Positions 52,615-53,091 of a stretch of DNA of 64,000 nt are shown here, one piece after another. The position numbers and the translations under genes are program-made. The DNA comes from an uncultured Aequorivita sp. (GTDB lineage Bacteria; Bacteroidota; Bacteroidia; Flavobacteriales; Flavobacteriaceae). Position 1 is the first letter of the stretch; each line of letters starts with the position of its first letter. The DNA lies in assembly GCA_937125455.1 (NCBI GenBank), contig CAKZLK010000047.1, positions 62,001 to 126,000 of the forward strand, read 5' to 3'. Below the pieces are notes generated by a model, which saw only the letters and a program-made list of their open reading frames with translations, was not told where the DNA came from and did no database searches.

Positions 52615-52687
52615 GGTGCCTTAGCTCAGTTGGTAGAGCAACGGACTGAAAATCCGTGTGTCCCTAGTTCGATTCTTGGAGGCACCA
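52615..52687 (+). tRNA. tRNA-Phe (GAA)
   Basis: The 73-base cloverleaf has acceptor arms GGTGCCT/AGGCACC, D arm GCTC/GAGC, anticodon stem ACGGA/TCCGT with loop CTGAAAA (anticodon GAA), a five-base variable loop, and T arm CCTAG/CTTGG with loop TTCGATT. The discriminator base is A and no CCA is encoded. The third T-arm pair is U-U, an unusual mismatch. A hairpin terminator follows. The 3' portion of the gene recurs at 53014-53050. Confidence 0.96.
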
Positions 52688-52690
52688 CTT

Positions 52691-52726
52691 AAATCCCCAG
52701 ACAGTTTGTTTGGGGATTTTTTGTTT
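52691..52726 (+). terminator. Terminator of tRNA-Phe, first copy
   Basis: AAATCCCCA and TGGGGATTT pair across an 11-base loop, followed by TTTTGTTTT. The same sequence recurs without change at 53055-53091. Confidence 0.9.
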
Positions 52727-52731
52727 TAAGT

Positions 52732-53013
52732 ATGCATTCTCTCTATATAATTCATTCCGCCACGCTTGATAGCTATTATGTTGGCGAGAGTCCAGATGTA
52801 CAAAGAAGGCTTAAACAGCACAATGAATATTATTTCAAATCGAATTTTACCAAAGGCGCGACTGATTGGCAAATTTCAATGAAATATGATTGTGCAAATA
52901 GGGCAGAAGCGTTATTTCTTGAAAAGTTTATAAAGAAGATGAAGAGCAGGGTGTTTATTGAAAAGGTTTTAGACAATCCCAAAATACTCTCAGATATATT
53001 AAAAAGAAAATAG
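52732..53013 (+). CDS. Small GIY-YIG nuclease-like protein
   Basis: The 93-residue product is a minimal GIY-YIG domain: SLYIIHSATLDSYYVGES holds the two-strand signature (here LYI..YVG in place of GIY..YIG), DVQRRLKQHN carries the conserved Arg, and AEALFLEKFIKKMKSR carries the Glu. It therefore has the core of a single-domain endonuclease, without a DNA-binding extension. The ATG is 5 bases past the tRNA-Phe terminator, and the stop TAG abuts a second copy of the tRNA 3' end and terminator. It is thus bracketed by direct repeats, suggesting a small mobile or homing-like unit. Activity is not demonstrated. Confidence 0.85.
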   Translation: MHSLYIIHSATLDSYYVGESPDVQRRLKQHNEYYFKSNFTKGATDWQISMKYDCANRAEALFLEKFIKKMKSRVFIEKVLDNPKILSDILKRK

Positions 53014-53091
53014 TCCCTAGTTCCCCCGATGGTTCGGGGTTGGAGGCACCACTTAAATCCCCAGACAGTTTGTTTGGGGATTTTTTGTTTT
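53014..53091 (+). pseudogene. Duplicated 3' fragment of tRNA-Phe plus terminator
   Basis: The first 10 bases TCCCTAGTTC equal tRNA positions 52661-52670; 52 bases from TTGGAGGCACC through the terminator to TGTTTT are identical to 52676-52727. In between, the five T-loop bases of the real tRNA are replaced by a 16-base perfect hairpin, CCCCGA TGGT TCGGGG (53024-53039). There is no acceptor 5' half, D arm or anticodon arm, so it cannot be a tRNA. The second terminator (stem at 53055-53083) presumably stops transcription of the nuclease gene. Confidence 0.9.

Follow-up and report, generated by a model that had tools for sequence, protein, structure and literature searches.

Integrative elements with tRNA attachment sites insert in a tRNA gene, regenerate its 3′ end and leave a direct repeat behind. 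In fungal mitochondria (Glomus, Allomyces), mobile endonuclease ORFs are accompanied by duplicated gene ends: the endonuclease gene (in atp9 a GIY-YIG one) carries in a foreign end for its host gene, and the native end, now displaced downstream, matches that of relatives (PMC3630166). The phage protein SegB is a free-standing GIY-YIG homing endonuclease encoded beside tRNA genes, implicated in cutting tRNA-containing sequence and driving tandem amplification by recombination (PMC13096335).

Here we describe a unit of approximately 364 bp in the window, the 64,000-nucleotide stretch of uncultured Aequorivita sp. DNA that was analysed. The unit comprises a tRNA 3′ end, a terminator, a GIY-YIG gene, a short tRNA fragment and a hairpin (Table 1), and is probably a minimal mobile element, resident in tRNA genes, acting like a free-standing homing endonuclease with a replacement host-gene end. 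The unit and its relatives regenerate the tRNA, carry a hairpin in the broken copy, fall into target-specific clades, share the orientation of the tRNA and form tandem arrays.

Like SegB, the window unit places a GIY-YIG nuclease beside tRNAs; SegB differs in belonging to a phage and in its larger protein, and the passages of PMC13096335 considered here describe neither a partial tRNA copy that completes a tRNA nor a hairpin. With the fungal mitochondrial elements it would share a carried replacement host-gene end and a displaced native end, whereas their host genes are protein-coding and the term hairpin does not occur in PMC3630166. The regenerated tRNA end and the 52-nt direct repeat are held in common with tRNA-targeting integrative elements, but units of the window type have no integrase, measure about 0.36 kb and possess a mirror form that rebuilds the 5′ end. 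GIY-YIG units may also resemble REP/RAYT systems, in which dispersed palindromes, some inside genes, are tied to a nuclease-type gene (PMC3733652); however, RAYTs are tyrosine (HUH) transposases rather than GIY-YIG proteins, and one class of units here (class b) has a tRNA arm at one side. The open-licence PMC literature yielded no paper on this arrangement, and a description in a subscription journal or preprint is possible; PMC9465073, the one paper found to mention both GIY-YIG and extragenic palindromes, concerns Moraxella carriage.

Table 1 Features of the tRNA-Phe locus in the window, with gene-less partial copies elsewhere in the same genome
Feature	Position	Strand	Basis or remark
TATATTTG	52594..52601	+	presumably the -7 promoter element of tRNA-Phe
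tRNA-Phe(gaa), intact	52615..52688	+	ARAGORN; Rfam RF00005, E 5.5e-15
TCCCTAGTTC in the intact tRNA	52661-52670		sequence
GATTC between matching blocks, copy 1	52671-52675		sequence
First copy, tRNA 3′ end and terminator	52676..52727	+	52-nt exact direct repeat; taken as unit-carried, by analogy with relatives
First intrinsic terminator, hairpin and T run	52691..52719	+	inverted repeat
GIY-YIG nuclease gene, 93 aa	52732..53013	+	ORF; PF01541
Repeated short tRNA stretch from 5′ of the T-loop point (TCCCTAGTTC)	53014..53023	+	sequence
REP-like hairpin CCCCGA-TGGT-TCGGGG (CCCCGATGGTTCGGGG) replacing GATTC, copy 2	53024..53039	+	sequence
Second copy, tRNA 3′ end and terminator	53040..53091	+	taken as native end, displaced
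Second intrinsic terminator	53055..53083	+	inverted repeat
Gene-less partial copies, own genome	G000:C17:250965-251039 (L070), L073, L077, L078		by eye

The earlier note had reported a 93-codon GIY-YIG gene lying between an intact tRNA-Phe and a repeated tRNA 3′ end with its terminator, and this layout is confirmed: the two copies form a direct repeat of 52 nt with 100% identity, which is not due to chance. The 52 identical bases stand, but a 16-base hairpin replacing GATTC in the second copy had been overlooked. This hairpin, with a perfect 6-bp stem, occupies the place of five T-loop bases between the matching blocks, and the short tRNA fragment repeated upstream of it begins directly 3′ of the GIY-YIG stop codon. 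The ATG of the nuclease gene lies four bases past the T run of the first terminator, and no other ORF of at least 60 aa is found between the two tRNA copies. CCCCGANNNNTCGGGG has a single match in the window at up to two mismatches (0.44 expected). An Rfam scan of 52400-53300 returned the tRNA as the sole match above the gathering score and no intron family among six matches with E up to 1; a group I intron or known RNA element at the locus, unsupported by that scan, was rejected. The arrangement recurs in related genomes. Chance or assembly artefact was likewise rejected, since a named Aequorivita genome (L234, whose protein is 85% identical) and many further genomes have the structure too, as was a lone curiosity, with relatives at many tRNA loci and in many genomes.

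The 93-aa protein matches the GIY-YIG family (PF01541, E 1e-11), the only domain returned by a Pfam scan, which gave no HUH tyrosine transposase domain; NCBIfam assigns it no family. With an AF2 model built from 19 sequences (mean pLDDT 92), the best PDB match in a fold search is 1zg2 (UPF0213/YhbQ, E 1.5e-3), followed by At-HIGLE and Slx1, with the I-TevI catalytic domain at rank 13 (E 0.31), and identity is 22–29% in the UPF0213, HIGLE, Slx1 and I-TevI rows. The GIY-YIG fold is thus shared with the catalytic domains of UPF0213/YhbQ, Slx1 and I-TevI; compared with I-TevI and other fold relatives, the model consists of a catalytic domain and a short helical tail, without a separate DNA-binding domain. 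Between the window gene and its 85%-identical relative, dS is 0.22 and dN 0.07, and dN was below dS in all five pairs tested. A tblastn search of the window protein alone against phage and plasmid collections gave no match and hence no candidate vector, and phage or plasmid cargo was rejected for this protein.

Insertion polymorphism is seen at two orthologous tRNA sites of one genus. Read via the neighbouring GHMP kinase gene, 30 loci divide into five that carry the element, 13 in which a lone tRNA and its terminator stand without an element, one (G016) holding three ORF-less units and 11 whose piece contains no tRNA-Phe. With G013 and G019 added as occupied from other searches, seven sites are occupied and 13 empty within one genus, which takes at least six changes on the tree of the neighbouring kinase. 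The mirror site, tRNA-Arg(tcg) beside yqeY, is occupied in five of 23 loci (G016, G019, G023, G002 and G014, the last two judged from gene matches and flank), in which the tRNA is preceded by the element or by units of it; 16 loci are empty and two, without a tRNA, are unscorable. The earlier note had proposed that a compact unit entered at the T arm and left a regenerated tRNA, and had suggested looking for empty sites in relatives. Such sites exist, in 13 of 20 scored same-genus genomes at the orthologous tRNA-Phe, and together with patchy occupancy and foreign-looking terminators in some genomes they support that reading.

Between the occupied G012 and the empty G022 there is a net insertion of 370 bp with a duplication of 53 bp, and the first 114 bases from the tRNA start are identical. 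Destruction of the target by insertion was not seen in this pair, the sole one compared. Because the occupied genome retains the same 114-base tRNA–terminator sequence as the empty one, a classical homing site is disfavoured. The unit shows several features of homing endonucleases, namely a GIY-YIG domain, the lack of an intron and presence or absence at the cognate site in relatives; it is not filed as a member of that group, since the target is left intact in this pair.

A family profile built on 13 small GIY-YIG proteins, chosen mainly for their position next to tRNAs, has matches at E ≤ 0.001 in 343 of 397 same-family and 198 of 296 same-phylum genomes, counts that include weak matches, some possibly to other GIY-YIG proteins; if the mobile-element reading is right, such elements are common. 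The best-scoring matches gave 109 loci, or 100 once nine duplicates were dropped, and 91 of these adjoin a tRNA on the same strand, which in 56 lies at most 200 bp upstream (mostly 38–67) and in 35 at most 40 bp downstream; three of the remaining nine have a tRNA farther off and six have none. At the phylum level 26 of 28 loci adjoin a tRNA (a few repeat family-level loci), while among 44 named Phe-type loci, 43 with the gene re-found, 33 adjoin a tRNA, one has it farther away and nine have none, seven of these at contig ends. Because the sample is the top of a ranked list, these fractions are not unbiased rates. The recurrence at other tRNA genes that the earlier note had predicted is borne out by the 91 loci of the family-wide search. 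A gene mostly far from RNA genes, which that note had named as evidence against its reading, is not what these loci show, but the profile was seeded largely by tRNA-side proteins and another GIY-YIG subfamily sits elsewhere. The window element is one member of a large family, whose mirror 5′ type and arrays were also absent from that note, and the occurrence of related units beside many further tRNA genes points to a widespread class of very small mobile DNA.

All 122 tRNA calls within 300 bp of the genes are co-oriented with them, duplicate loci and hairpin pseudo-tRNAs counted in. In 5′-type units, which have the tRNA downstream, nuclease gene and tRNA often overlap, the stop codon lying inside the tRNA at offset -10 or -23; in L127, L140, L149, L156, L175 and others it is often formed by tRNA bases 8-10 (TAG) or falls at base 23. 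The genome from which the window comes holds seven PF01541 matches, among them another unit linked to a tRNA (tRNA-Met, L003) and two small genes that have no tRNA next to them (L001, L002).

For the most part, proteins group by the tRNA that they target. In a 101-protein tree, the label 'tRNA and side' takes 30 changes against a shuffled mean of 73.3, with none of 200 shuffles as low, and the Phe label, with 15 rows, takes two changes. A single clade unites Val-tac and Arg-tct, the anticodon arm being replaced in both, while Arg-tcg, Arg-acg and Met 5′ show no clustering of their own and are mixed with Ala in one clade of D-arm targets. In G001, a Phe-clade gene stands at tRNA-Arg(cct), whose T arm has AGTTCGATTCTTGG in common with tRNA-Phe (by eye).

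Among 146 units in 91 loci, a partial tRNA copy was found in 119 and none in 27. Both borders were located in 115 units, 98 of which have inserts with a perfect stem of at least 6, mostly at tRNA loops or replacing an arm; counted as distinct inserts, these are 64 of 80, against 70 of 1,600 shuffled ones. An end-to-end hairpin test with automatic borders found 6/6 pairs in 25 of 69 inserts (0 of 1,380 shuffles), and 46 of the 69 were more stable than all 50 shuffles, a weaker test than the internal-stem count because automatic borders are often misplaced. A stem count of 'WC 424, mm 8' is biased, the hairpins having been chosen as longest perfect stems, and was left unused. The hairpin sits in the T loop in Phe and Leu-taa units and in the D loop in Asn 5′, Ala and Arg-tcg units, and it replaces the anticodon arm in Val and Arg-tct units. 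On the protein tree the hairpin class takes 16 changes against a mean of 24.8, the lowest of 200 shuffles being 20.

Hairpin sequences are also dispersed. The exact 16-mer CCCGATAGCTATCGGG occurs in 20 of 24 genomes, in up to 40 copies (control 0), and CCCGANNNNTCGGG lies at 15 places in the window's own genome versus two for a control, six of the 15 close downstream of tRNA genes (by eye). In G012, the 20 regions read, covering 25 of 35 hairpin copies, comprise three at tRNA copies, one near tRNA-Asp and 16 without a tRNA; the first group includes a tRNA-Arg copy with hairpins in all three arms and a tRNA-Leu with five ORF-less units. An mrp-like gene of the same genome (L231, around 1000) carries an in-frame 18-base hairpin where relatives have three bases, an exchange identical to the one found in the D loop of tRNA-Asn and the T loop of tRNA-Leu; this in-frame palindrome resembles Rickettsia palindromic elements. 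Control of hairpin copy number by GIY-YIG gene number was rejected, with no visible relation across the genomes compared (G304 has no exact hairpin and 12 profile matches).

The unit apparently brings its own tRNA 3′ end and terminator, since a few genomes combine a foreign-looking upstream terminator with the native one downstream. The downstream terminator of G005 is that of its nearest relatives (G012, G018, G022) and its upstream one differs; the upstream terminators of G005 and G013 are similar, though their genes are only ~60–66% identical to the window's. In G013 the downstream terminator is like that of G014, and the clade members G004 and G011 differ. The Maribacter arrays L246 and L250 have an end terminator unlike the internal ones, which are common to L243. 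Such import is clear in few cases, because both terminators are alike in many occupied loci (for example G000, G027 and G012, and also in other genera) and the downstream terminator of G019 does not match that of its sister G003.

End units are intact in 32 of 49 arrays; the far one is broken and the near one intact in 15, and the reverse holds in two. L019, counted among the 15, is truncated where its locus ends; without it the counts are 14 versus two (two-sided sign test ~0.004, by hand), and in one of the two reverse arrays (L136) the odd unit is on the other side of the tRNA. As read from the sequences, this polarity fits entry of new units at the intact tRNA.

Small GIY-YIG genes away from tRNAs (L001, L002, L027, L028, L032, L034, L364-L393) mostly appear to have a RAYT/REP-like arrangement with a different enzyme. 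In a general inverted-repeat test the pair around the gene exceeded control pairs in 20 of 26 strong and six of nine weak cases; two of the 20 (L373, L377) were without control windows, leaving 18 of 24 strong cases with controls. A strict repeat pattern occurs on both flanks in five of 35 loci and on one flank in two, against one of 431 control windows. Many of the flanking palindromes start with TGTCA (TGTCAnnCTGAGC..GTCGAAG, TGTCACTTCGAG..). Di Nocera and others report CGTC REPs without a dedicated transposase (PMC3733652), and the two tags may be of the same kind. Flanking inverted palindromes were seen only in this non-tRNA subfamily; most tRNA units have a hairpin at the far end, and dispersed copies exist besides.

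The element is real and widespread, and its mechanism is what we infer. In the simplest account, nuclease-stimulated recombination into a tRNA arm, the nuclease would cut a tRNA gene in the arm that carries the hairpin, and repair against element-bearing DNA would copy the unit in. In the 3′ type the tRNA would be completed by the unit's own end, and in the 5′ type the unit would rebuild the 5′ end of the tRNA; the native end would be pushed off and tagged with the hairpin. Later units would enter at the intact tRNA, so that arrays would grow there and decay at the far end. If this is right, the elements are among the smallest gene-bearing mobile elements and rebuild part of an essential tRNA gene at each entry.

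The main rival, given that non-tRNA relatives are mostly flanked by inverted, often TGTCA-tagged palindromes, is a REP-like transposition in which the GIY-YIG protein would recognise palindromes, with hairpin and tRNA arm both read in single-stranded hairpin form, and would move or duplicate the DNA between them, much as is proposed for RAYT enzymes acting on REPs; tRNA arms would be used because they form hairpins. We consider this rather unlikely, though the 114 bases that G012 shares with the empty allele and the presence of the hairpin, which do not fit classical homing, keep it alive. The perfect stems, mostly located in tRNA loops or substituting for an arm, the dispersal of hairpin sequences, a hairpin class that tracks the protein tree better than chance and the inverted palindromes beyond all control pairs around non-tRNA genes all speak for it, but the hairpin class is confounded, since protein clades follow the tRNA target too, hairpin copy number does not go with gene number, and the dispersed hairpin in the mrp-like gene arrived without a GIY-YIG gene. 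REP-like movement and the homing-like explanation are not mutually exclusive. As a tentative proposal that we rate as possible, the small GIY-YIG nucleases may be the Bacteroidota counterpart of RAYT/REP, namely the enzymes so far missing for palindromic repeats with (C/T)GTC tags and for related ones, with one branch homing in tRNA genes and replacing tRNA halves, the palindrome put into the tRNA arm being its own end. They would then form a separate class of mobile element of about 0.36 kb, among the smallest known with a gene of its own.

Passive duplication, in which ordinary recombination copied the tRNA end around a resident nuclease gene with another, perhaps RNA-level, role, would be in keeping with tandem arrays whose units are almost identical, with arrays that lack an ORF but consist of the same tRNA fragments, and with equal terminators in several loci; it is made improbable by the scattered occupancy of orthologous sites, by protein clades that are specific to a target across genera, by terminators that in some genomes differ from the native one and by the polarity of arrays. 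Scarcely credible is a remnant or satellite of a tyrosine-integrase element with a tRNA attachment site: a tRNA 3′ end regenerated with direct repeats is what integrase sites have, but the nuclease gene is the lone ORF of at least 60 aa between the window copies, 5′-type units duplicate the tRNA 5′ end and a spacing of 355–400 bp is too short for an integrase gene.

Several minor observations accompany the homing-like element. ORF-less tandem units (L056 1110-1430, L221 1000-1290, L253 2320-2520) consist of tRNA fragment and hairpin only, plus a terminator in L056, and are possible non-autonomous forms. The window's own genome has gene-less, hairpin-bearing partial copies just past tRNA-Gly (two), tRNA-Cys, tRNA-Arg and tRNA-Val (by eye; Table 1), and in L220 an intact tRNA-Arg is preceded by two tRNA-Arg copies whose three arms all hold palindromes. 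In L018, L019, L102 and L106, ARAGORN calls hairpin-bearing pseudo-tRNAs tRNA-SeC, tRNA-Gln or tRNA-Stop; these are a source of false tRNA annotation, and the element reading, if true, would explain such odd tRNA-like copies. The pattern CTGAGCNNNGTCGAAG is present in 22 of 24 genomes (control 0), and the window itself contains three exact copies of the dispersed repeat CTGAGCGCAGTCGAAG, at 6872-6887, 22805-22820 and 60914-60929 (0.52 expected at up to two mismatches).
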